The notes below the pieces were generated by a model. That model saw only the letters and a list, made by a program, of their open reading frames with translations, ran no database searches and was not told the origin of the DNA. Made by a program: the position numbers and the translations under genes. This document shows positions 11,094 through 22,618 of a stretch of 53,312 nucleotides of DNA, piece after piece. Source of the stretch: Rhodocyclaceae bacterium (GTDB lineage: Bacteria; Pseudomonadota; Gammaproteobacteria; Burkholderiales; Rhodocyclaceae); assembly GCA_026417115.1 (NCBI GenBank), contig JAOADW010000005.1, positions 1 through 53,312 on the forward strand, in the 5' to 3' direction. Positions within the stretch are counted from its first letter, which is position 1. Each line of letters starts with the position of its first letter.

Positions 11094-11855
11094 TCAACGT
11101 CTGCGCAAAACGAAGCAGACGAGCGCGAGCAAGAGCGTGAGCGTCGGGCCAAATGGCTGGTCGAAGGAAAGCGCGGCCGCAAACGCCAGCCCATAGACGA
11201 AAAGGCCGAGACCCACAGCAAGCACGATGGCGGAAAAGCCATTGCGGGCGATACGGTAAGCCGCCCAAGGCGGCAAAAAAAGCAAGGCGAAACTGCCCAT
11301 CAAGCCCAGCGCGCCGATCGCTGCGGCGAGCAGGAAGGCCGTCAGCACGTCGAAACCCAGGCGCCAAGATCCGCCAGGCAGCCGGTTGGCCTTTTCGTGT
11401 TCGGGAAAGAAGCGCGCGACGACGAGCCGGTGCGCCCAGCGCGGCAAAAACACAGCGGCAGCGCTCGCGGCCAGCCAAGCAAAAGCCAGTTCGCGCCCCC
11501 CTGCGAAATACAGCTGACCATCGCTGATCGCCTTGGCCCAAGCCTCGCCGTGGGGCGCATTGGCGATCATCAACGTCGATGCCGCCCAGCCCAGCAGGAT
11601 CATCCCGGCATGAAAGGAATTGCCGCTCGCGGCGAAGATTTGCTTGCCGAGCACGGCCAGTAAGGCCAAAAGGCAGGCGCCCACCACGGCCGGCGCTTCC
11701 AAGGCTGCGGCAAGCACCGCCCCGAGACCCGCCCATTGGGACACTGCCAGCGCCGCCAACCATTCGTCTCGCAGGCGCAGATAATGGCCAAGCCAAGGCA
11801 GGGCGAAAGCCAATGGCAGGCCCACGAGAAAAGGCAACAAAAACAGCATGCTCAT
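11094..11855 (-). CDS. znuB: Zinc ABC transporter permease (ZnuB-like)
   Basis: Inner-membrane permease of the ABC-3 metal transporter family, 253 residues. It has about seven hydrophobic segments, beginning with MSMLFLLPFLVGLPLAFALP and ending in a long hydrophobic tail before FVLRRR. The ABC-3 features LTAFLLAAAIGALGLMGSFALLFLPPWAAYRIA are visible near residues 165-200. Its ATG overlaps the znuC stop in an ATGA, showing translational coupling in the order znuA-znuC-znuB. It would carry zinc delivered by ZnuA into the cytoplasm. It is the last zinc gene on this arm. Zinc rather than manganese is inferred from the zur gene in the same operon. Confidence 0.88.
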   Translation of the reverse strand: MSMLFLLPFLVGLPLAFALPWLGHYLRLRDEWLAALAVSQWAGLGAVLAAALEAPAVVGACLLALLAVLGKQIFAASGNSFHAGMILLGWAASTLMIANAPHGEAWAKAISDGQLYFAGGRELAFAWLAASAAAVFLPRWAHRLVVARFFPEHEKANRLPGGSWRLGFDVLTAFLLAAAIGALGLMGSFALLFLPPWAAYRIARNGFSAIVLAVGLGLFVYGLAFAAALSFDQPFGPTLTLLLALVCFVLRRR

Positions 11856-12409
11856 GGTGAAAGCGCGATCACCTCGTGGGCAACCGTCGCAAGAAAGTCG
11901 TGGTCGTGACTGACGATCAGTATCGCTCGCTCCTTTTGCACGTTTTGGACTTCCTCGATCGCCAATCCGATGTGCTCGTGATCGAGATGATTGGTCGGTT
12001 CGTCGAGCAGCACGAGCTCTGCTCCCTGCGTGAGCACTGCCCACAGCATGAGGAGCTGGAATTCTCCACCAGAAATCCTATCGAGGCGGCGCGGAAGCAC
12101 CTGGGCAAGCCGTTGCGGCGGCGCATGTCTTTGGCATGCATAGGCGGCGAGAAGCTCTTCGCCGCTATAAGGCGTTTCCTCGGGCCGCGCGGCATGCTGC
12201 GCAAGCCAAGCGATGCGCCAAGTCGGCGGCCGCAGCAGGACGCCGGAAAAAATCTGCGCCTCGCCTGCGATCGCCGCCAAGAGCGTCGATTTACCCACGC
12301 CGTTCGGCCCCTGGATGCCGACCGTCTTACCGCGCTCGAGCGTGAAGCTAAGCGGCGGGGTGAGCGGCCGTCGCCAGCCGACGACCACAGCGTCTGCGAT
12401 CAATTTCAT
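11852..12409 (-). CDS. znuC: Zinc ABC transporter ATP-binding protein (ZnuC-like, short)
   Basis: ATPase driving the zinc importer, 185 residues. Walker A GPNGVGKST, signature ISGGEFQ, Walker B LVLLDEPTNHLD and switch SHDHDF are all present in order, so the catalytic core is complete. It is clearly shorter than E. coli ZnuC (about 250 residues). It lacks the C-terminal extension and some spacing in the helical domain. It is coupled by ATGA overlaps both to znuA upstream (12406-12409) and to znuB downstream. The start MKLIADAVVVG follows directly on znuA. Confidence 0.9.
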   Translation of the reverse strand: MKLIADAVVVGWRRPLTPPLSFTLERGKTVGIQGPNGVGKSTLLAAIAGEAQIFSGVLLRPPTWRIAWLAQHAARPEETPYSGEELLAAYACQRHAPPQRLAQVLPRRLDRISGGEFQLLMLWAVLTQGAELVLLDEPTNHLDHEHIGLAIEEVQNVQKERAILIVSHDHDFLATVAHEVIALSP

Positions 12410-13284
12410 CGTGTTTGCGCCAAGACCTCGACCCACCGGTCGATCAAAGCGAAATACTCGGCGGCCGTGCTGCCGGCGGGCGGCTCGATGGGCAAACGCG
12501 CCACCCTCAGGCCCGTGAGGGCAGCAAGCTTCTCTGCGCCAGCAGACGGCTGATAAGGCGTATGGATGATCACGCCCTCCTTGCCTTTGAGCGTGGTGGC
12601 GAGACTTTCGAGGTGGCTTGCGCTGGGCGCAATCCCCGGCAGCGGCTCGAGTGTGCCCAGATGGGGCCGCTGCAAAAAAGCAAGGAGATACACGGCATCT
12701 TTGTGATAGGTGACGGCGCCCGCTGCGCTGGCCGCCTTTTGTCGCCAAAGTGGAGTTCTTCGCGCGACTTCCTGCGCAAAGGCCTCGGCGTTTTGGCGAT
12801 AGCTCGCCGCATGGAAAGCATCGAGCCTGGCCATACGCTCGGCCAAGGCTTGCGCGACCGTCGCCATGCGGCCAGGATCGAGATGGAAATGGGGATTGCC
12901 CGCGGGATGCACATCGCCCTGCGAACGATCCGCCGCGGCGCCTGCTTCCAACAACGCCACATGCGCCGCCGCTTCGAAATAGCCCGGACGGCCGGGCATC
13001 ACGCGTGCGTTGGCCGCGCCAGAGAGCGCGGCAGGCAGCCAACCGACCTCGAGGTCGGCGCCGACGGCGACGACGAGGTCGGCATCGCGCAACGCGCGCA
13101 TCATCGAAGGCTTGACCTGCAGGTGGTGGGCATCTCGATCCGGCGGCGCGAGCTCCACGACCCTCACCGCGGCGCCGCCGACGACGCGCGCCAGCATGCC
13201 CATGCTCGCCGTCGTGGCGACGACTTCGAGCGCCGCGGCCCAGGGGGTCCAAGCCAACAACAGCAAAAGAATCAGGCGCCTCAT
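12406..13284 (-). CDS. znuA: Periplasmic zinc-binding protein (ZnuA-like, cluster A-I)
   Basis: Captures zinc in the periplasm for ZnuBC. The protein has 292 residues with a signal peptide (RRLILLLLLAWTPWAAA). Candidate metal ligands are His53/His54 (DAHHLQ), His132/His134 (NPHFHLDP) and His194 (YHKDAVY). The fourth position falls near His241. The long His/Asp-rich loop found in E. coli ZnuA is absent here. The start at 13284 is preceded by a GGGGGAG ribosome site. It lies 10 bases downstream of the outer-membrane gene and overlaps znuC by ATGA. Zinc specificity is inferred from the zur context; sequence alone would also allow manganese. Confidence 0.9.
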   Translation of the reverse strand: MRRLILLLLLAWTPWAAALEVVATTASMGMLARVVGGAAVRVVELAPPDRDAHHLQVKPSMMRALRDADLVVAVGADLEVGWLPAALSGAANARVMPGRPGYFEAAAHVALLEAGAAADRSQGDVHPAGNPHFHLDPGRMATVAQALAERMARLDAFHAASYRQNAEAFAQEVARRTPLWRQKAASAAGAVTYHKDAVYLLAFLQRPHLGTLEPLPGIAPSASHLESLATTLKGKEGVIIHTPYQPSAGAEKLAALTGLRVARLPIEPPAGSTAAEYFALIDRWVEVLAQTR

Positions 13285-13294
13285 TGTCTCCCCC

Positions 13295-14722
13295 TCAAAA
13301 CGCATGCGCGCCATGCGCGCCTAAGCTGAGCTGGTATTGCAGGAAAAGCTGATTGGCTTTTTCGCGCACGCCATCGACCCAGAGATGCGCGCGTGACAAT
13401 TGCAGGCGCAGCCGCGAAAAATGATCGATCTCACGCGTCAGCGCCCACGTCCAGCGATCCGAACGCCGCCATTCCTGCAATCGCCCACTAGGCCCGCGGA
13501 CTTCGTTCTTCGTCAGCCCCAGGGCGTCATAGCGCAGGCCGATGCGCCAATAGGGCAACACGCCATAGGTCGCCTGAATGACCGCGCCATCCTGGACAAA
13601 GTCGCGTGGCTGACCGAGAAGCGCGCCGTCCTCATGGAAAGCGATGCGCAGGTCTTTACTGACGCGCAGGTATTCGGCGACGAACTTGAGGTTGCCCTGG
13701 CCGCCGTAACCATCGGCGTCGTAGCGATACACTGCGTCGAGCCCCCAGGCCCTCGCCTTGCCTTCGAGGGCGTGTACGAGCGATGCGGGATCCTCGGCCG
13801 TGTGATCATGAACCTCTTGATGCTGGCGGGCGCGTGCAAGCCAACCGCCCCATTGCAAGGCGTGACGCGTCCCGAGATCGGGCGCGAATTTCGCATAGAG
13901 AGTCCACAGACGCGGACCACCTTTCTGCGCGGAAAGCTGCCCGGCGGCAGTCGGCGCAAGAGGCTGGCCATCGGCGCGCGCGTTGGGAGTTGTAAGCCCG
14001 CTCGTGGCAAATGCCTGCTCCTGACCTTGCAACCATTCGACGCCAAACTGCGTATACCAACTGCCCGTCTTGGGCGTCCAGACCACTCGCAAACCCGTAT
14101 CGGTGAGGCCATGCTCTCCCAAGAGCGTCTGATAGGGCAGATTCTGGTCTACGAAATCCCACTGATGGGGATGCTGGGCGTTGAGATAGCCGATGCCGGA
14201 AAGAAATTTGCCGGCGCGCAATTTGAAGCCAGCAGGCAGGCTGCGTGTCTCGAAATAAGCTTCCTCGAGCGTCACTTCGCCTTTGCGCTCGATGCCAAGC
14301 TTGGCGGCGGCGTCGAAATGGGGGCTCACGGCGGCGGACAAGACGAGCTCCGTCGTGCGCAGATCGAAGCCACGCTCGAGAGCGCGCGCATGCTCGTCAT
14401 GCGCATGATGCGCGCCATCGATGCTTGCGTAGAGTGAAGCGCTTCTCCCTCCTCGGTTGTCGTGGAAATATACGCCATCGAGGATCAATGAAACGTTTGG
14501 ATTGAAGGCGCTGGCGGCGGCCGGCGACGCGGGCTCCGGCGCCTTTCTCGCCATGCCTTTCTCCTCCGCGGCCCGCAGGCGCGCCTCCAGCATCGCAATG
14601 CGTTCTTCATAGGCCTTGCGCAGCTGCGCGATTTCTTCCCGCAGCGCGCGCATGTCCTCTTGGGCAAACGCAGGGTATGCAAAACAGGCGAATGCAAGCC
14701 CTGCCGCCAATGGGTTGCGCAT
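13295..14722 (-). CDS. Putative outer-membrane beta-barrel protein with His-rich segments, zinc operon
   Basis: I do not recognise a named family. The protein has 475 residues. It has a signal peptide (cleavage after AYPAFA), a coiled-coil segment at about residues 22-58 (MRALREEIAQLRKAYEERIA), a Pro/Ala linker, and then alternating aromatic/hydrophobic strands typical of a porin-like barrel. Histidine clusters occur at 105-111 (HHAHDEH), 184-186 (HPH) and 301-307 (HQEVHDH), which could be metal-binding loops. The ribosome site AAGGAGG is strong. It precedes znuA by 10 bases in the zur operon. The inferred role is zinc passage across the outer membrane under starvation, taking the place of the TonB-dependent ZnuD of other bacteria. 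It lacks a TonB box and plug domain. Confidence 0.7.
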   Translation of the reverse strand: MRNPLAAGLAFACFAYPAFAQEDMRALREEIAQLRKAYEERIAMLEARLRAAEEKGMARKAPEPASPAAASAFNPNVSLILDGVYFHDNRGGRSASLYASIDGAHHAHDEHARALERGFDLRTTELVLSAAVSPHFDAAAKLGIERKGEVTLEEAYFETRSLPAGFKLRAGKFLSGIGYLNAQHPHQWDFVDQNLPYQTLLGEHGLTDTGLRVVWTPKTGSWYTQFGVEWLQGQEQAFATSGLTTPNARADGQPLAPTAAGQLSAQKGGPRLWTLYAKFAPDLGTRHALQWGGWLARARQHQEVHDHTAEDPASLVHALEGKARAWGLDAVYRYDADGYGGQGNLKFVAEYLRVSKDLRIAFHEDGALLGQPRDFVQDGAVIQATYGVLPYWRIGLRYDALGLTKNEVRGPSGRLQEWRRSDRWTWALTREIDHFSRLRLQLSRAHLWVDGVREKANQLFLQYQLSLGAHGAHAF

Positions 14723-14768
14723 AGCAATCCTCCTTGCTCGAAAAGGGAAAATGGGGCGAAAAAACTCT

Positions 14769-15059
14769 TCAGAGGCAAGGAAGCGCGGGTGGCGCACGCC
14801 CGTGGTAGGGCAGGCGCAGCGGCGCCGCGACGCCAAGCTGCGCTTTCCCCGCGGGGCGCATGCGCGGAAACAAAGGCTCGGGCAGCCTTGGGGAAGACGC
14901 TGGCGGCGCATTCCAGCCAGGCGCCGCGAGGCATTCGATGCAAGGGGTATCGGCAGAAGCCATCGCATGAGCGACGCCATGCTCGGCCAGCGCCCACTGC
15001 GCGCCCAGCAAGGCTATGACGAACGCGATCAGGCGCCAGATTTCCCCTTGGCTGCGCAT
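14769..15059 (-). CDS. Small exported protein with His and CxxC motifs
   Basis: A 96-residue product of unknown function. One N-terminal hydrophobic segment (IAFVIALLGAQWALA) acts as a signal or anchor. A short motif HGVAHAM followed by CIECL comes next, then a Pro/Arg-rich tail. The pattern of His near the membrane followed by CxxC resembles the DUF2946-type small proteins found near metal genes; this assignment is tentative. Its start lies inside the 3' end of zur (31-base overlap), and the outer-membrane gene follows 46 bases after the stop, so it belongs to the zur operon. No strong ribosome site is visible, which lowers confidence. It could bind zinc or copper in the periplasm. Confidence 0.5.
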   Translation of the reverse strand: MRSQGEIWRLIAFVIALLGAQWALAEHGVAHAMASADTPCIECLAAPGWNAPPASSPRLPEPLFPRMRPAGKAQLGVAAPLRLPYHGRAPPALPCL

Positions 15060-15463
15060 TGGGCGCACGTTCCTTTGACGTCGAACTCCGCCGCTTCGAG
15101 TCGAAAACCTTTGGGCAAGCGCGGCGGCTTTGGCGGCGGCGCGGTCAAACAAAACACGCCGCCGCATCCGAGGCAATGGAAATGGACATGCCGCTCATGC
15201 CGCCTGTGCGTATCGCGCGCGGAAAACCGGGCCACACCGCGTCGATCGACAGCCTTCGTCGCCAGCCCTGCCGCCGTCAGCGCCTCGAGCACGCGATAGA
15301 GCGTCACGCGGTCCGGCGGGGCATCCGCCTCTTTCCTTGCTAGCGCCTCGATCTCCGCATGCGAAAGGGGCTTGGTGGTTTCCGCCAGCAAGCGCAAGAC
15401 GAAAAGGCGCGCCGGCGTCGCCTTGAGCCCGGCATTTCGCAGTATGGATGCAATCGACTCCAT
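15029..15463 (-). CDS. zur: Zinc uptake regulator, Fur family
   Basis: Zinc-sensing repressor of 144 residues. The N-terminal winged helix includes the recognition helix region DRVTLYRVLEAL (51-62). Cys97-x2-Cys100 and Cys133-x2-Cys136 form the structural zinc site. HVHFHC (92-97) supplies regulatory-site histidines. The genes around it (ZIP, znuABC) identify it as Zur rather than Fur. It is the first gene of the minus-strand arm, divergent from the ZIP gene, with a long palindromic operator between them. The start at 15463 has no Shine-Dalgarno sequence. A TAGATT -10 element ends six bases before the ATG, so the message may be leaderless and autoregulated. Confidence 0.93.
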   Translation of the reverse strand: MESIASILRNAGLKATPARLFVLRLLAETTKPLSHAEIEALARKEADAPPDRVTLYRVLEALTAAGLATKAVDRRGVARFSARDTHRRHERHVHFHCLGCGGVFCLTAPPPKPPRLPKGFRLEAAEFDVKGTCAQCAAKGKSGA

Positions 15464-15469
15464 GGCGCG

Positions 15470-15498
15470 AATCTAACGCAACTTGTTTGCAAATGCAA
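15470..15498 (-). promoter_or_regulatory. Predicted zur promoter
   Basis: On the minus strand, TTGCAT (complement of 15493-15498) and TAGATT (complement of 15470-15475) are separated by exactly 17 bases. The -35 hexamer lies within one arm of the operator palindrome, so Zur binding would block it. The -10 ends six bases before the zur ATG. Confidence 0.6.
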
Positions 15499-15518
15499 CA
15501 TGATTGCATTTGCAAACA
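15484..15518. promoter_or_regulatory. Zur operator (perfect 15-base-arm palindrome)
   Basis: TGTTTGCAAATGCAA at 15484-15498 and its exact reverse complement at 15504-15518 flank the 5-base spacer CATGA. The inner 21 bases have the form AAATG-N11-CATTT, the same framework as the known Zur consensus of gammaproteobacteria (AAATGTTATANTATAACATTT). It sits between the divergent zur and ZIP genes and overlaps the -35 hexamers of both. A single occupied site could therefore repress both arms of the island. Confidence 0.85.
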
Positions 15519-15532
15519 TTTCATGCTTTAAT
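15504..15532 (+). promoter_or_regulatory. Predicted ZIP-operon promoter
   Basis: TTGCAT (15504-15509) and TTTAAT (15527-15532) are separated by 17 bases. The -35 lies in the right arm of the Zur palindrome. Only nine bases separate the -10 from the ATG at 15542, with no Shine-Dalgarno sequence, so transcription would start next to the start codon. Confidence 0.6.
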
Positions 15533-15541
15533 GCCTTGGCC

Positions 15542-16333
15542 ATGCTCGGCCTTCCTCTTTATTTCCAAATCGCGCTAGCTTGCCTGGCAGGCGGCGTGCT
15601 CTCGCTCTTCGCCGCCGCACTCGTGATGTTCGGGCTTTCGCGGCGTTGGCTGGCATACGCAGTGAGTTTTTCGATCGGCGTCTTGCTCGCGACGGCGCTT
15701 TTGCATCTATTGCCCGAGGCGCTGGAATCGGGACTCTCTCCGCATGAGGCATTTCCGACGCTACTTTGTGGCATCCTTGGTTTTTTTGCCCTGGAAAAGT
15801 TCGCCATCTGGCGCCACGCGCATGGCAATACGGACACGCATGTCGGCGCCCCCTCGTGTGAGGATCACACCCACGAGCATCATCACGCTCAAGGCGGCGA
15901 GGCGCTCGTGATCGTCGTTGGCGATGGTTTCCACAACTTTGTCGATGGCCTGATGATCGCCGCCGCCTTTCTCGCCGATCCCCATCTTGGCTGGCTCGCC
16001 ACAGCCGCGGTGGTCGCGCACGAAGTGCCGCAAGAAGCAGGCGACTTCGCCATCTTACTGGCTGCAGGCCTCTCACGCGCGCGTGCATTCGTCTGGAATG
16101 GGCTATCGAGCCTCGCTTCGCTCGGAGGTGGCGTCATCGGCTATATCGCGTTCGAAGAAGCCCAGCGCGCGATCCCCTATCTCGTCACCCTCGCGGCAGC
16201 AAGTTTCGTCTATATCGCGATCGCCGACCTGATGCCGCGGCTGAAACGCGAACAACGCGGCATCCTCGGCCATGCCGCATTGCTCGCGCTGGGCATCGTC
16301 ACGGTTCTCCTGCTCAATGGTCATCGCCACTGA
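15542..16333 (+). CDS. ZIP family zinc transporter
   Basis: Inner-membrane zinc importer of 263 residues. It has about eight hydrophobic segments with the cytoplasmic His-rich loop between the third and fourth (THVG-CEDHTHEHHHAQGG). Transport-site motifs are GDGFHNFVDGLMIAAAF (fourth segment, His-Asn-x2-Asp) and AHEVPQEAGDFAILL (fifth segment, HEx2QE). The start at 15542 gives the usual short N-terminus. Longer frames would begin inside the operator. It is the first gene of the plus-strand arm, directly downstream of the Zur box, so it should be induced when zinc is low. The DUF2796 gene follows after 10 bases. Confidence 0.92.
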   Translation: MLGLPLYFQIALACLAGGVLSLFAAALVMFGLSRRWLAYAVSFSIGVLLATALLHLLPEALESGLSPHEAFPTLLCGILGFFALEKFAIWRHAHGNTDTHVGAPSCEDHTHEHHHAQGGEALVIVVGDGFHNFVDGLMIAAAFLADPHLGWLATAAVVAHEVPQEAGDFAILLAAGLSRARAFVWNGLSSLASLGGGVIGYIAFEEAQRAIPYLVTLAAASFVYIAIADLMPRLKREQRGILGHAALLALGIVTVLLLNGHRH

Positions 16334-16343
16334 AACAGACGCC

Positions 16344-16868
16344 ATGAAGCCATTTCCCCTTTTCGCCATGCTTGCCCTTGCCGCCTGTCCAGTCCTCGCG
16401 CCACGCGCGCATACACATGGCGAAGGCCGGCTTGTCGCCCTGCTCGAAGGCGCATCCCTCACGCTCGAAATCGCCGTGCCCCTCGAGGCAGCCGCGGGCT
16501 TCGAGCGGCCGCCCAGAAATGACAAAGAAAAGGACCTGCTCGCCAAGGCGCGGCAAACGCTCGGCGAGGCAAGCCACTGGCGTATCAATGCGGAGGCTCG
16601 ATGCCAACTCGAACACAGGCAGGTGAGCGTTCCTTTCCTCGATTCTTTCGAGCAAAGCCAGGGGCCAGCACCCACCGGTGACGCCTCTCACGCCGACATC
16701 GAAGCGCGCTTCGTCTATCGCTGCGCCCATCCCGAGGCGTTGAAAAGCCTCGAGACGACGCTGTTTCGCTTATTGCCCCGTCTTTATCGCTTCGAAGCGA
16801 TCCGCATTGGACCGCGTGGCCAAGGCAAAGCGCGTCTGACGCCCAAGACGCCGACGCTTTCATGGTGA
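16344..16868 (+). CDS. DUF2796 family periplasmic protein
   Basis: A 174-residue exported protein with signal peptide (FPLFAMLALAACPVLA) and a mature N-terminus starting HTHGEG, a typical metal-ligand motif of DUF2796 proteins. The rest (LEIAVPLEAAAGFERPP) follows the family pattern. Function is not established. Family members sit in zinc-starvation clusters with an ABC ATPase, an FtsX-like permease and a DUF3299 protein, the same order as here and as in the Zur-regulated PA4063-PA4066 cluster of Pseudomonas aeruginosa. A role as periplasmic zinc binder or chaperone is inferred. A Cys residue in the signal region (AAC) could alternatively make it a lipoprotein, but the lipobox is poor. Confidence 0.82.
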   Translation: MKPFPLFAMLALAACPVLAPRAHTHGEGRLVALLEGASLTLEIAVPLEAAAGFERPPRNDKEKDLLAKARQTLGEASHWRINAEARCQLEHRQVSVPFLDSFEQSQGPAPTGDASHADIEARFVYRCAHPEALKSLETTLFRLLPRLYRFEAIRIGPRGQGKARLTPKTPTLSW

Positions 16869-16875
16869 GCGCCGC

Positions 16876-17562
16876 ATGATCGAGCTTGCCGAGGTTGTCT
16901 TTCGTTGGCCGGGACAACGAAAGCCTTGTCTTGCGATCGAGCGTTTTCATCTCGCGCCGGCAGAACGCGTGTTTCTCCATGGCCCCTCGGGCTCTGGCAA
17001 GAGCACGCTTTTGAACTTGATCGGCGGCGTCATGCGGCCCGCACAAGGGCGCATCGTGGTGCTCGGCCAAGATCTGGCGGCGCTGCGAGCCCGCCGGCGT
17101 GATCGATTCCGCGCCGACCACATCGGCTTCATCTTCCAGCAATTCAATCTGTTGCCGTGGTTGTCGGTCCTCGACAATGTCTTGCTGGCTTGTCGTTTCT
17201 CTTCTCGACGCCGAGAACGCGCCGGAAATGCGCGTGCAGCGGCCGAGCGGCTACTCGCAAGCCTAGACATGGCGCCCTCGCTCTGGCGCCGGCCGGCAGC
17301 CGAGCTGTCCGTAGGACAGCAGCAACGCGTTGCCGCCGCGCGCGCGCTGATCGGACGACCTGAAATCCTGATCGCCGATGAGCCCACCTCTGCGCTTGAC
17401 GCAGAGCGCCAGCTTGCTTTCATCGACCTCTTGCTCAGCGAGGCCAGGGCGACGGAAGCCGCCCTGCTGTTCGTCAGCCACGATCTCAGACTCGCACGCC
17501 ATTTCGACCGCATCGTCGAGATGCAGGCGATCAATCGCATGGCCGGGGAGGCAGATCGATGA
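16876..17562 (+). CDS. ABC transporter ATP-binding protein (MacB/LolD type), zinc cluster
   Basis: ATPase of 228 residues. Walker A GPSGSGKST, Q-loop FQQFNLLPWLSVLDNV, signature LSVGQQQRVAAARAL, Walker B ILIADEPTSALD and the H-loop FVSHD are all intact. The FQQFNLLP segment is typical of LolD/MacB-type ATPases that pair with FtsX-like permeases. These transporters act on periplasmic or outer-membrane substrates rather than importing solutes. It follows DUF2796 by 7 bases and overlaps the permease gene by ATGA (17559-17562). What it moves or powers in the zinc response is not known. Confidence 0.88.
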   Translation: MIELAEVVFRWPGQRKPCLAIERFHLAPAERVFLHGPSGSGKSTLLNLIGGVMRPAQGRIVVLGQDLAALRARRRDRFRADHIGFIFQQFNLLPWLSVLDNVLLACRFSSRRRERAGNARAAAERLLASLDMAPSLWRRPAAELSVGQQQRVAAARALIGRPEILIADEPTSALDAERQLAFIDLLLSEARATEAALLFVSHDLRLARHFDRIVEMQAINRMAGEADR

Positions 17563-18827
17563 AAGCCCTCTTTGCATTGGCCTTCAAAAGCGCTTGGGCG
17601 CGTCGCTTTCTGCTGACCATCACGCTCGTCGCCATCGCCCTCGCCACCAGTTTGCTGCTCGCCATCGAGCGCGTGCGGCTCGATGCGCGCACGAGCTTCA
17701 CGCAAGCCGTCTCAGGCGTCGATCTCGTCGTCGGCGCACGAGGCGGCGCCCTCGAGCTCATGCTCAACGCCGTGTTCCATGCTGGCGGTAGCTCCCACAC
17801 CATTCGTTGGGACAGTTTCGAAGCGTGGCGGCGCCATCCGGCAGTCGCCTGGGCCGTGCCCGTCTCGCTCGGCGATGCCTATCGCGGATTTCCCGTCGTG
17901 GGCACCACGCCGGATTATTTCCGTCATCTCCATCATGGCGATAAGAAACCCTTGACGTTTGCGGCAGGCCGTTCCTTCGCCGGCGACCTCGACAGCGTGT
18001 TCGAAGCCGTCGTCGGCCATACGGTGGCCTCTCAGCTTGGCTTGCGCACCGGCGAGCGCATCACGCTCTCGCACGGCATGACCGAGCTCTCGCCATTGCA
18101 CGCCGACAAGCCTTTCACGATCGTCGGCATCCTCGCGCCCACGGGCACGCCCATGGATCGCGCGGTCTTCGTTTCCCTCGAGGCGATCTCTGCGATCCAT
18201 CTCGATTGGGTCGCGGGCGCTCCCACCCCCGGGCTTTCGATTCCTGCCGAACTCGTCCGCAAATTCGACCTTGCGCCGAAAACGATCACGGCTTTCTACC
18301 TCGGCCTTCATCAGCGCGCCGATGTCTTTCGCCTCCAGAGAGCCATCCATTCTTACGTGCAAGAACCCTTGCTCGCCGTACTGCCGGGGGTTGCGCTCGA
18401 TGAACTCTGGTCGCTGCTCACGCAAGTCGAAACCACATTGCTGACGCTTTCCGCGCTGGTCGTCGTCGTAGGGCTTGCTGGCCTTTCGGCGACGATGCTC
18501 GCGAGCCTCGAATCCCGGCGCCGCGAGCTGGCCATCCTGCGCAGCTTAGGCGCGGGCGCGCCTGAGATTCTCCTCTTGTTGGCCACGGAAGGAATGATCG
18601 TCACGGCCGCCGGCATCCTGGCTGGCCTCGTCTTGCTGGCGCTCGCGCTCATTCCCCTTGCTCCCCTCGCCCACGGCTATGGTATTCATCTTTCATGGCG
18701 GCCTCCCGCTGCCTCGGAATGGATGATTCTCGGCGCCATCTTTCTCAGCGGTATTCTCTCGAGCCTCGTGCCAGGCTTGAGAGCCCTGCGCATGACGCTC
18801 GTCGATGGCCTCACCCCCCGCAGCTAG
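17559..18827 (+). CDS. FtsX-like ABC permease, zinc cluster
   Basis: Membrane partner of the preceding ATPase, 422 residues. It has one N-terminal membrane segment (about 12-32), a large periplasmic domain (about 40-290), and three C-terminal membrane segments (VVVVGLAGLSATMLASL; GMIVTAAGILAGLVLLALA; WMILGAIFLSGILSSLVPG), which is the MacB/FtsX topology. The segment SRRRELAILRSLGAGAPEI after the second helix is the conserved coupling region. It is translationally coupled to the ATPase. The DUF3299 gene begins 2 bases after its stop. It corresponds to PA4065 of the known P. aeruginosa zinc cluster. Confidence 0.88.
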   Translation: MKALFALAFKSAWARRFLLTITLVAIALATSLLLAIERVRLDARTSFTQAVSGVDLVVGARGGALELMLNAVFHAGGSSHTIRWDSFEAWRRHPAVAWAVPVSLGDAYRGFPVVGTTPDYFRHLHHGDKKPLTFAAGRSFAGDLDSVFEAVVGHTVASQLGLRTGERITLSHGMTELSPLHADKPFTIVGILAPTGTPMDRAVFVSLEAISAIHLDWVAGAPTPGLSIPAELVRKFDLAPKTITAFYLGLHQRADVFRLQRAIHSYVQEPLLAVLPGVALDELWSLLTQVETTLLTLSALVVVVGLAGLSATMLASLESRRRELAILRSLGAGAPEILLLLATEGMIVTAAGILAGLVLLALALIPLAPLAHGYGIHLSWRPPAASEWMILGAIFLSGILSSLVPGLRALRMTLVDGLTPRS

Positions 18828-18829
18828 CG

Positions 18830-19354
18830 ATGATCCGACAACTACTTTTTCTTTGCCTGTTTTGCGCCGCCCCACTCGCGGCGCAAACGTTCCCTGAAAT
18901 CAAATGGGAAGAACTGGTGCCGAAAAGCTGGAACCCAGCCGCCCTATTCAAGGATCTGGATCTTTCCAAACTCTCGGACGCCGACCCCCGCGCGATGGAA
19001 GCGATGGAACGCCTGAAGCGCGAATGGGATGCCGCACCCATCGAGCCTGCGCTCAGCGGTCGGCGCGGGCGCATCGCCGGCTTCGCGATCCCGCTCGAGC
19101 GTGCCGGTGAAAAAGTAAGCGAGTTCCTCTTGGTACCCTACTTCGGAGCCTGTATCCACACGCCTCCACCGCCCGCCAACCAGATCATCCATGCCCGAGC
19201 CAGCAAACCCTTGGCCGACGTGCGCATGATGGCACCGATCTGGGTCTTTGGCACGCTCGAAATCAAGCGTCGCGAAACGCAATGGGGAGTCGCCGGCTAT
19301 GCGATGCGCGTCGAGCGTATCGAGCCGTATCAGGGCGCGCCCGCGCCGCGCTGA
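18830..19354 (+). CDS. DUF3299 family exported protein, copy 1
   Basis: A 174-residue protein with signal peptide (LLFLCLFCAAPLAA) and the DUF3299 core: RIAGFAIPLER, then EFLLVPYFGACIHTPPPPANQIIH, then GTLEIKR and GYAMRVERIEPY. The Cys and His in GACIH are likely functional, possibly metal-binding; this is inference. It ends the plus-strand zinc operon, immediately after the permease, matching the last gene of the PA4063-PA4066 type cluster. Its 3' end is one base from the convergent rlmI stop. A paralogue lies at 20779-21402. Confidence 0.85.
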   Translation: MIRQLLFLCLFCAAPLAAQTFPEIKWEELVPKSWNPAALFKDLDLSKLSDADPRAMEAMERLKREWDAAPIEPALSGRRGRIAGFAIPLERAGEKVSEFLLVPYFGACIHTPPPPANQIIHARASKPLADVRMMAPIWVFGTLEIKRRETQWGVAGYAMRVERIEPYQGAPAPR

Positions 19355-19355
19355 A

Positions 19356-20543
19356 TCAAGCGACCTCGAGCAAAAGCCCCTTGAGGTATTCTCCTTCTGG
19401 AAAGGACAACGCCACCGGATGATCCGCCGCGGCGCCGAGCCTTCTGACGATGCGCGCTTCTCGGCCGCTTTCCAACGCCGCCGCGGCCACCATGCGCTGA
19501 AAAGCCTCTACAGAGACGGCGCCCGAGCAAGAAAACGTCATCAAAAATCCCCCTTGCGCCAGGAGGCGAAAGGCGAGCAAATTGATGTCCCGATAAGCGC
19601 GCAGCGCACGTGAAAGATGCGCTGCGCTCGGCGCAAACTTGGGGGGATCGAGAATGATGAAATCGAAAGATGCCCCGGCCTGCACAAGCCTTCTGAGCTC
19701 CTCGAAGACGTTGGCGCAGCGCCACTGCGCGCGCTCCAGAGGAAGCCCTGGATTGAGCTCGCCATTCGCCTGCGCGCGCGCAAGGGCCGGCTGCGAACTA
19801 TCGACGGAAAGCACCGAACGCGCGCCGCCCCGCAAAGCCTGCAGCGAAAAGCCGCCGGTATAGCAGAAGCAATTGAGCACACGCCTATCCGCGGAAAACT
19901 CGGCGACGAGGCGTCGATTCTCGCGTTGATCGAGATAAAAACCGGTCTTGTGGCCGCCGATGATGTCGATGGCGAGCTTCACGCCATGCTCTTCGATGAC
20001 GATCTCATCGCAAGCCACGCCATGACGCCAAGCGATGACGGGTTCGAGTCCTTCGAGCGCGCGTGTCTCGGCGTCCGATTTCTCGTAAAGACGGCGGCAG
20101 CCGCTTTCCTTGATCAGCGCTGCGACGATCGCCTCACGCCATTTTTCCGCACCCGCCGAATTCAATTGCAGCACCACGGTATCGTCATAGCGGTCGGCGA
20201 TCACGCCCGGCAACCCATCCGACTCGCCATGAATGAGACGCAGGCCCTGTTGCGAGGAGAGTTCTGGCAAACGGAACCGACGTTGCAAGGCCGCGGCGAC
20301 GCGACGCTTGAAGAAAGCATGATCGACGGGCTCATGCAAATCGAAAGTCCAGACACGGGCACGAATCTTCGAGGCAGGCGAATATGCGGCGTAAGCCAGC
20401 GCTTCGCCACGCGCGGATCTCACGACGACCGTCTCGCCGGCGCGCAGCCGCCCTTTCGTCTCGGCGATCGAAGTATCGTAGAGCCAAGGATGGCGTAAAA
20501 GCAGCGAGCGCTCCTTGCCCGGCTTGAGGGTCAATTCCTTCAT
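19356..20543 (-). CDS. rlmI: 23S rRNA (cytosine-C5) methyltransferase RlmI-type
   Basis: Methylates cytosine C5 (position 1962 in E. coli numbering) of 23S rRNA. The protein has 395 residues, the expected length. An N-terminal PUA domain covers about residues 1-75 (LKPGKERSLLLRHPWLY). The Rossmann methyltransferase core has VLNCFCYTGGFSLQALRGGA as the SAM-binding motif, and FIILDPPKF is the motif IV-type DPPKF typical of the RlmI family. LMTFSCSG supplies a catalytic-region cysteine. The start at 20543 matches the family N-terminus. The 235 bases upstream, before the DUF3299-2 stop, hold no recognisable gene. Confidence 0.92.
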   Translation of the reverse strand: MKELTLKPGKERSLLLRHPWLYDTSIAETKGRLRAGETVVVRSARGEALAYAAYSPASKIRARVWTFDLHEPVDHAFFKRRVAAALQRRFRLPELSSQQGLRLIHGESDGLPGVIADRYDDTVVLQLNSAGAEKWREAIVAALIKESGCRRLYEKSDAETRALEGLEPVIAWRHGVACDEIVIEEHGVKLAIDIIGGHKTGFYLDQRENRRLVAEFSADRRVLNCFCYTGGFSLQALRGGARSVLSVDSSQPALARAQANGELNPGLPLERAQWRCANVFEELRRLVQAGASFDFIILDPPKFAPSAAHLSRALRAYRDINLLAFRLLAQGGFLMTFSCSGAVSVEAFQRMVAAAALESGREARIVRRLGAAADHPVALSFPEGEYLKGLLLEVA

Positions 20544-20778: not shown

Positions 20779-21402
20779 TCAGCGTCGCCGGCGCCAGGGA
20801 TAGGGTTCGACTTCAGCACTCGCAATGCGATAGCCTGCCATGCCTTCTGACGTATGCGTCTGCGCGATGCGCAACACGCCTTTGACATAGACGGGGAAAA
20901 TCGCCGTCTCGAACGCCAACGGCTCCTTCGGCAGCACATGAATGATTTGATTGGCGGGAGGCGGCGGCATATGGATGCACGCGCCATAATAAGGCACGAG
21001 CAAAAATTCGGTGACGCCTTTGTCATTGCGTTCGAGCGTCACCACGAACCCTGCGATGCGCACCCGTTTGCCTTCCCACTCTTTGGCCACGGGCGCGCGT
21101 TCAAATTCATCCCGCAAACTTTGCAGGAGCGCCTTCGCGCGTGGGTCATTGTCCGAGAGCGCGGAAAGATCCACGCCCGCAAGCGCTTTCGCAGGCTGCC
21201 AGCCGGCTGGCGTCAACGCCGACCAATCGATTTCCAGGGCGCCGTCGGACGTAAGGCGGCTCTGCGGCGCTGGCAAACTCTCGCCGATGCGAAACTCTGC
21301 TTGCGCAGGCGCCACGGTCGCCAGCAAGGCCCACGCCGCGAACCAGCCGAGCCGCCGCAAGCGGCGTGCTTGCCTCTCAGCGCGGCAGCTCCTCGAAGAC
21401 AT
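20779..21402 (-). CDS. DUF3299 family exported protein, copy 2
   Basis: A 207-residue paralogue of the zinc-cluster DUF3299 protein. It has an N-terminal signal (LGWFAAWALLATVAPAQA) after a long Arg-rich n-region, then the conserved EFLLVPYYGACIHMPPPPANQIIH and GMAGYRIASAEVEPY. It overlaps the end of the beta-propeller gene by 26 bases, so the two are translationally coupled. The first codons may be over-extended; a later start within the signal region is possible. It is separate from the Zur-box operon, and no operator is seen upstream of its own operon. Function unknown; a joint role with the propeller lipoprotein is inferred from coupling. Confidence 0.82.
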   Translation of the reverse strand: MSSRSCRAERQARRLRRLGWFAAWALLATVAPAQAEFRIGESLPAPQSRLTSDGALEIDWSALTPAGWQPAKALAGVDLSALSDNDPRAKALLQSLRDEFERAPVAKEWEGKRVRIAGFVVTLERNDKGVTEFLLVPYYGACIHMPPPPANQIIHVLPKEPLAFETAIFPVYVKGVLRIAQTHTSEGMAGYRIASAEVEPYPWRRRR

Positions 21403-22618
21403 TGGTCCACACGTTCAGCACTTGTGAGCCGCCCGCCGCATCGCCCGTCTTGATTTCCTTGACATAGGCCAAGGTCGTCATGTCGATCTTATGGAGATTG
21501 CCATCGCCGGCGTTCGAGAGATAGCCGAAACGCCCATCGGGCGTAAACGCGATATGCCCCATGCGGCCCTTGCCGATCGCCAGATCCTTGACCACTTTGA
21601 AGTCCTGGCTGTTGTCGATGATCGATACCCAGTTGTTGCCATAGTTTGTGACGACTGCATAGCGGCCGTCGGGCGAGTTATAGGTATGGCCTATGCCCGT
21701 GGAGACGGTTTCGGTCCGCTTGACGAACTTCTTCGTCTGCGCGTCGAACACGGCCACCTCAGTACCCGCCAGTTGGCTGCCGGGGCCACGGTTGAGGATG
21801 AAAAAGTATTTGCCATCCTGCGTGAAATTACCGTGGTGTCCTTCGATCACCCCCTGTCCAATGAGCGGCATCCTGATCTGCGCGATCTGTTCGAAACTGC
21901 CGATCGCATAGACGAGCGCGCCGGGGTAGTTGCTGTCGCGATCCTTCCCTTCGACGACGAGCCAGACTTCCTTGCCATCGGGGCTGGGCACCGGATAATG
22001 CGGCTTCGAAGGCGTCTTGATTTTCCTCACCGACCAGTCCCGCGTATCGATGACGACGAAATGGTCATCGACGCGATCGACGGTAAAGGCATAGCGCGAA
22101 TCGTAGCTCCAGGCATTGTGCATCGAGGTGACGCCCGAGGCTTGCCCTTTGACCTCGAGATCGATGGTCTTCGCCACCGTGTCGCTCGCCGTGTCGATGA
22201 AAGAGACGCGCAGTTTGCCTTCATCCAGTCCCCAGTGATTGACCATGACCCATTTGCCATCGGGGCTCGCCAAGGGATGCTTGGGACGATTGCCGGTCTT
22301 GATCTTGCCGACGACAGCCCTCTTATCGAGATCGATCACCGTCACCGTCGTGCCGCCCTCGGCTTCTGCGCCGACATAGACCTTGCGTCCATCGGGTGTG
22401 GTGGTGCCCAAGGCGCCGCCTTTCTCGGTATCGAGCGCAGCCACGACCGTATCGCTCGCCGGATCGACGAGATAAGCCTTGCCATTGCCGGCATGCAAAT
22501 GCACGATCAAGTGGGGCCATTTGACCTCTGCTCGCTTGGTTGCCGTCGTCGTTGCACAGCCGGACAATCCCACGCCCACGGCAACGCCCGCGAGCGCGAA
22601 GAGCTTCGCAAGCCTCAT
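21377..22618 (-). CDS. Lipoprotein beta-propeller (YncE/YVTN-like) with recurring blade histidines
   Basis: A 413-residue lipoprotein. The lipobox is LSGC with Cys21, after a signal starting MRLAKLFALAGVAVG. The rest is a beta-propeller of YVTN/YncE type, with repeated TPDGR/SPDGK turns and DTASDTV-like strands, about seven blades. A histidine occurs four or five residues before the (S/T)-x-D-G/S turn of six blades: His114, His167, His207, His261/262, His311 and His355. His36, His40 and His42 lie near the N-terminus. Such a ring would face the central channel and could bind a metal or haem. A GGAGG-containing ribosome site supports the start. It is coupled to the second DUF3299 gene. Substrate unknown. 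Confidence 0.8.
   Translation of the reverse strand: MRLAKLFALAGVAVGVGLSGCATTTATKRAEVKWPHLIVHLHAGNGKAYLVDPASDTVVAALDTEKGGALGTTTPDGRKVYVGAEAEGGTTVTVIDLDKRAVVGKIKTGNRPKHPLASPDGKWVMVNHWGLDEGKLRVSFIDTASDTVAKTIDLEVKGQASGVTSMHNAWSYDSRYAFTVDRVDDHFVVIDTRDWSVRKIKTPSKPHYPVPSPDGKEVWLVVEGKDRDSNYPGALVYAIGSFEQIAQIRMPLIGQGVIEGHHGNFTQDGKYFFILNRGPGSQLAGTEVAVFDAQTKKFVKRTETVSTGIGHTYNSPDGRYAVVTNYGNNWVSIIDNSQDFKVVKDLAIGKGRMGHIAFTPDGRFGYLSNAGDGNLHKIDMTTLAYVKEIKTGDAAGGSQVLNVWTNVFEELPR

Follow-up and report, generated by a model that had tools for sequence, protein, structure and literature searches.

The window, i.e. the whole 53,312-nt stretch of Rhodocyclaceae DNA that was analysed, carries at positions 11094–19354 two arms of tightly packed genes diverging from a common spacer. 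Six genes are read from the minus strand. Closest to the spacer is a Fur-family gene, the candidate zur (15029–15463, Pfam FUR), whose end is overlapped by the gene of a small protein with a CIEC motif (14769–15059). They are followed by the gene of an outer-membrane porin of OprO/OprP-like type (13295–14722), assigned from its coiled coil and modelled barrel, and by three genes of an ABC transporter: a ZnuA/AztC-type zinc-binding protein (12406–13314), an ABC ATPase of ZnuC/AztA type (11852–12409), whose own ATG overlaps the znuA stop, and an ABC-3 permease of ZnuB type (11094–11855), whose own ATG overlaps the stop of the ATPase gene. Five genes are read from the plus strand, encoding a ZIP-family metal transporter (15542–16333), the periplasmic zinc-binding protein ZrgA, also known as DUF2796 (16344–16868), an ABC ATPase of ZrgC/PA4064 type (16876–17562), an FtsX/MacB-type permease of ZrgB/PA4065 type (17559–18827) and a DUF3299 protein of ZrgE/PA4066 type (18830–19354). 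Pfam supports the ABC-3 permease, both ABC ATPases, ZnuA, FUR, ZIP, ZrgA, FtsX/MacB_PCD and DUF3299, and NCBI models add to the assignment of both ATPases, the binding protein and the ZIP transporter. No Pfam match was found for the small CIEC protein or for the outer-membrane protein; stretches resembling the small protein are present in some relatives. Inside both arms neighbouring genes overlap or are separated by no more than 10 nt, with the sole exception of the 46 nt between the small-protein gene and the porin gene. The original prediction described two divergent operons that share an operator, and the open genes with their common spacer bear this out; the count of ten genes given there has to be corrected, since its named list totals eleven.

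The spacer contains a perfect inverted repeat (15484–15518), detected by an inverted-repeat search, with 15-nt arms that are 100% complementary and lie 5 nt apart. The operator core within it, AAATGCAAC-ATG-ATTGCATTT (15491–15511), is a Zur-box candidate: the core AAATGCAACnnnGTTGCATTT (21–23 nt) is kept in relatives, while the outer bases of the palindrome beyond the core-adjacent one have diverged. A palindromic candidate site is present upstream of the zinc importers. At up to three mismatches the 33-nt palindrome form was matched in none of 100 shuffles of the window. The own genome (62 contigs totalling 2.27 Mb, completeness 87%) returned a single site at up to three mismatches both for the 25-nt form and for the 21-nt core. 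A loose version of the core, ATGCAACnnnGTTGCAT, occurs in the window at three sites against 2.3 expected, which is chance level, so that weaker boxes elsewhere are possible. Zur boxes of the gamma/alpha type have the form GTTATRNNATAAC, and none was found in the own genome. The Vibrio Zur box, in the available part of its description (PMC9817125), is a palindrome of equal size with different letters.

Among 395 genomes of the family the core was found at up to two mismatches in 83, against 5 of 395 for a reversed-pattern control (hand count of rows). Within the genus 13 of 19 genomes carry it, one site apiece; at this threshold none was found in the remaining six (G187, G231, G286, G331, G352 and G362), G187 having one core site at three mismatches. 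Outside the genus, 11 of 12 hand-picked, and hence non-random, operator stretches contain a ZIP gene.

Promoter-like elements flank the core on both sides. On the plus strand the −10-like hexamer TTTAAT (15527–15532), preceded by TGn, lies 9 nt ahead of the ZIP ATG and 17 nt from TTGCAT (15504–15509) in the right half of the operator. On the minus strand TAGATT (15470–15475) lies 6 nt ahead of the zur ATG, again 17 nt from TTGCAT (15498–15493), which there belongs to the left half. Only 5 nt separate one −35 position from the other, so that the promoters are probably mutually exclusive even without Zur. This geometry was followed through 28 distinct divergent zur/ZIP spacers aligned on the core. 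In 27 of them, the exception being L091, the zur ATG stands exactly 6 nt past the −10-like hexamer, at +27 from the core edge. TGn precedes the −10 element in 26 spacers on the zur side and in 25 on the ZIP side; the window itself has CGn at zur where relatives have TGn. On the zur side mean pairwise identity amounts to 75% across the −10 region, compared with 38% for the spacer and 41% for the 6 nt that precede the ATG. In 10 of the 28 spacers, including that of the window, the ZIP side too has an ATG where a leaderless start would place it.

Based on the constant distance between the −10-like element and the start codon in 27 of 28 spacers one can assume that the zur mRNA is probably leaderless, because a transcript that starts at or about the zur ATG leaves no room for a ribosome-binding site. 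A real, if minor, possibility is that the conserved TGTGGTTTCAT is not the −10 element of zur and that its promoter lies further upstream. The −35 element is weak (TTGCAT matches the consensus at three of six positions) and the promoter scan reported no site for either arm at its stricter threshold. Moreover, zur genes from other layouts, which were read by eye, retained the spacing in just two of eight cases, L135 (ATG at +29) and L139 (GTG at +28). An operator-like site precedes zur in L041, L045 and L046 without the conserved −10/ATG spacing, and in L122, L160 and L173 no close operator was found upstream of zur (5 to 8 mismatches). Against an upstream promoter stands the 6-nt distance itself, held in all spacers except one although adjacent positions diverged. 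Leaderless mRNAs do exist in Burkholderia cenocepacia, with regulators over-represented among them, according to the part of that study available (PMC4603805). For zur of the island the locus thus yields a clear prediction, that of a leaderless, autoregulated metal sensor.

The putative sensor is assigned to the Fur family by PF01475 (39 bits, cut-off 23.1). It matches the listed curated Fur, PerR, Irr and Zur models weakly, reaching 21 of 167 bits with the NCBI Zur model. A second Fur-family protein encoded elsewhere in the genome scores 155 bits versus 38 for the island candidate, which leaves the latter free to be Zur. Weak likeness to the curated models would also suit a sensor of some other metal (manganese, nickel or iron), with the island serving that metal; the ZnuA-type protein matches a manganese model as well, with 74 bits, and ABC-3 and ZIP proteins are able to carry Mn or Fe. 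We consider this very unlikely, given that three zinc-linked families (ZrgA, ZIP and AztC/ZnuA) come together at the island and that the strong Fur-family protein is a separate one. Zinc is also the metal to which the Zrg systems studied in the literature respond, and the Vibrio zrg genes, in the available parts of two reports (PMC9817125, PMC9820375), are Zur-repressed and required for growth without zinc.

That the locus is a Zur-controlled zinc-starvation island appears, on sequence evidence, quite probable; our confidence in the zinc-island reading is slightly lowered by the failure of the zur spacing in most of the other layouts examined. When zinc is plentiful, zinc-loaded Zur would occupy the 21-nt core and cover the −35 region of both promoters, silencing the importers and zur itself together, and zinc shortage would open both arms. 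Zinc would then pass through the porin across the outer membrane and be retained in the periplasm by the ZnuA/AztC-type protein and by ZrgA; ZIP and the ABC-3 transporter would take it on into the cytoplasm. In this sense the zinc response would be complete from the outer membrane to the cytoplasm.

Relatives were sampled as 80 named loci, the best 80 of 541 that contain a relative of the FtsX permease. The top of these best 80 is occupied by metagenome genomes of Rhodocyclaceae, with Candidatus Accumulibacter regalis in third and Sulfuritalea in seventh place. For the genus 13 loci besides the window were counted; locus L095 yielded no row in the layout listing. In all 13 the ZIP–ZrgA–ATPase–FtsX series diverges from zur, and for these fetched loci the neighbourhood comparison proposed with the original prediction thus supports the combined arrangement; in other genera the arms are often separate. 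DUF3299 follows the series in 11 of the 13 loci, or in 10 by a stricter distance rule. The island of G019 lacks it, the sole DUF3299 gene of that genome being of a type linked to a beta-propeller gene, and L085 ends too early. The plus arm is flanked in the window by a gene of an RlmI-like methyltransferase (PUA_3 and Methyltrans_SAM; 19356–20543, minus strand), and the same flank was registered in 12 of 13 genus loci, L085 again ending too early. The minus arm is more variable. Porin, ZnuA, ZnuC and ZnuB are complete in 3 of 13 (L033, L035 and L083, at 48–72% identity), in six other loci the porin, the binding protein or both have diverged (27–41% identity), and four show neither. Genome G231 has a full plus arm (L188, 4943–8744), with zur and the operator absent within the adjoining ~1.7 kb. 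In L035 (G159) an additional ZnuA-like and ATPase-like stretch (15711–17131) lies just past the ABC transporter.

Among the best 80 of 541 loci the ZrgA–ATPase–FtsX block is present in 67 and is followed by DUF3299 in 60. ZIP stands ahead of the block in 23 of these 80 loci, 16 of which have a divergent zur and three a zur gene of the same direction. Many other genera have the Zrg block without porin or Znu neighbours in the stretch examined. Three loci, namely L122 (a genome from a proteobacterial metagenome), L173 (Thiobacillus) and L168 (Hydrogenophilus), have porin, ZnuA, ZnuC and ZnuB downstream of the Zrg genes in the same orientation, which indicates that the gene set coheres in more than one layout; no zur match was found at the Hydrogenophilus locus. 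As judged from its genes and their neighbourhoods, the locus of the window is a real, conserved and most likely Zur-controlled zinc-uptake island, whose parts are known and whose arrangement is a variant. In the main texts of open-access papers (the Zur logos of PMC2770081, for instance, stand in a supplement) we found no published Zur motif of Rhodocyclaceae and no ZIP–zrg–zur arrangement.

By its gene content the plus arm belongs to the Zrg type. ZrgA reaches 126 bits with PF10986 (cut-off 27.4) and matches the solved PA4063 and the V. cholerae protein, the structures matched being 7ahw (PA4063) and 8ezw; it adjoins an ATPase and an FtsX/MacB-type permease, and DUF3299 comes next. The DUF3299 protein itself matches structure 4hsp, listed as “hypothetical protein”, and the ZIP protein, compared by sequence, had no match among solved structures at E 0.001. 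The likeness to the PA4063–PA4066 cluster of P. aeruginosa that had been proposed for this arm is thereby substantiated, the four gene kinds being the same and in the same order, and the ZIP gene said to be joined to them indeed stands ahead of zrgA. No ZIP gene belongs to the Pseudomonas operon in the part of its description available. The zrgABCDE operons of Vibrio cholerae and V. parahaemolyticus likewise combine ZrgA, a MacB-like permease, an ATPase and DUF3299, as far as the accessible text of two reports goes (PMC9817125, PMC9820375). In contrast to them, the island has ZIP ahead of zrgA instead of the DUF2607 gene (zrgD), adds a divergent zur, the porin and the ABC-3 transporter, and uses an operator of different letters. 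The His-rich central loop of PA4063 is missing from the ZrgA of the island; for V. cholerae ZrgA this loop is described as dispensable in the available text of PMC9820375.

Two questions remain unsettled in this field: the route by which zinc gets past the outer membrane when no TonB receptor is involved, and the job of the MacB-type pair in zinc uptake. The original prediction regarded the substrate of the ATPase/permease pair as not known. Two published roles exist for such pairs, a role of the Vibrio Zrg pair in zinc uptake (PMC9817125, PMC9820375) and cobalt–pyochelin export, as which the pair of PA4063–PA4066 was read from genetic data in P. aeruginosa (PMC11481552), all three sources being available in part. 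The model of the island permease (pLDDT 83.6) is nearest to MacB and LolCDE in Foldseek (5gko, E 2.1e-15; 7arh, E 3.9e-15), with a best TM-score of 0.54 that places it at the family level only. The same likeness has been published for PA4065, as the accessible portion of PMC11481552 states. A MacB tripartite pump was considered and rejected: ATPase and permease are two chains, and no adaptor family occurs among the eleven genes.

The MacB-like fold and the P. aeruginosa genetics would be in line with a pair that exports a metallophore, making the island a unit of metallophore secretion and zinc uptake. We hold this unlikely. Among 199 genomes drawn from the family, 6 of the 19 genus genomes included, NRPS condensation domains were found in 17 of 59 genomes with ZrgA versus 37 of 140 without it (p=0.73, no association), and in none of the six genus genomes; in addition, neither a TonB receptor nor a MacA-like family was found by Pfam among the eleven island genes. 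The search for opine dehydrogenase (PF10100) gave no match in the 199 genomes, nor in the controls, and so carries no weight for opine-type metallophores. Since the pair is kept in genomes without condensation domains, pyochelin export is unlikely to be its general role, as we argue here, which leaves the P. aeruginosa data unaffected. Mechanical work at the periplasmic face, by which ZrgA would be loaded or unloaded, is the most likely task of the MacB/Lol-type pair of the island, more so than siderophore export.

The gene kinds of znuA-C-B were named correctly for the minus arm, which encodes a zinc-type ABC-3 transporter; by score, though, it is nearer to AztABC than to ZnuABC. The binding protein scores 80 bits with AztC against 39 with ZnuA, and the ATPase 94 bits with AztA against 56 with ZnuC, all below the NCBI cut-offs. 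With AztABC and ZnuABC it shares an ABC-3 permease, an ATPase and a ZnuA-family binding protein in one operon, and as the curated cut-offs of both are not reached, it is filed here only as a zinc-type ABC-3 transporter.

The structure model of the porin comprises a coiled coil and a 16-strand barrel of OprO/OprP type; a profile search against solved structures found nothing below E 0.1. Identity to the OprO/OprP phosphate porins (and DcaP) is 13%. The title of structure 2o4v names an arginine ladder for phosphate. The island porin differs from OprO/OprP in standing in a zinc operon and in having an invariant His/Asp stretch in the loop between strands 5 and 6, the set N-x2-H-x-H-x-W-D-F-x-D, which is a candidate zinc eyelet. 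One can go further and suppose that the porin is zinc-selective owing to a constriction-loop eyelet of N181, H184, H186, D189 and D192, and that the ZrgBC pair drives the passing of zinc, within the periplasm, from the porin to ZIP and the ABC transporter; this would be an ATP-driven relay without metallophore or TonB, with one operator also setting the leaderless zur mRNA. As a whole this combination is rather unlikely.

The component gene kinds are known; what deserves attention is how they are packed, the channel of the outer membrane and the mode in which zur appears to be read. The strongest additions are the NRPS result, the loop of the porin and the geometry of the promoters. A compact locus with porin, ZrgA, MacB-type pair, ZIP and ABC transporter around a single operator, in genomes in which no NRPS condensation domain was found, offers a clean place to test both questions named above.

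A second DUF3299 gene lies outside the island (20779–21402, minus strand). Its product is 49% identical to the island copy, and the gene overlaps the end of the gene encoding the beta-propeller (21377–22618, minus strand). The zinc chaperone AztD was considered as a counterpart of this propeller and the assignment was dropped, the best matches being other propellers with no AztD model or structure listed. Membership of the propeller in the island was rejected as well, its copies in relatives lacking a nearby operator: no operator at under 6 mismatches was found near propeller and DUF3299 in the genus genomes G019, G080, G159 and G260. In these four, which are all that were fetched, DUF3299 (62–63%) again follows the same propeller (82–85%). 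DUF3299 apparently has, therefore, a second partner that is independent of zinc.
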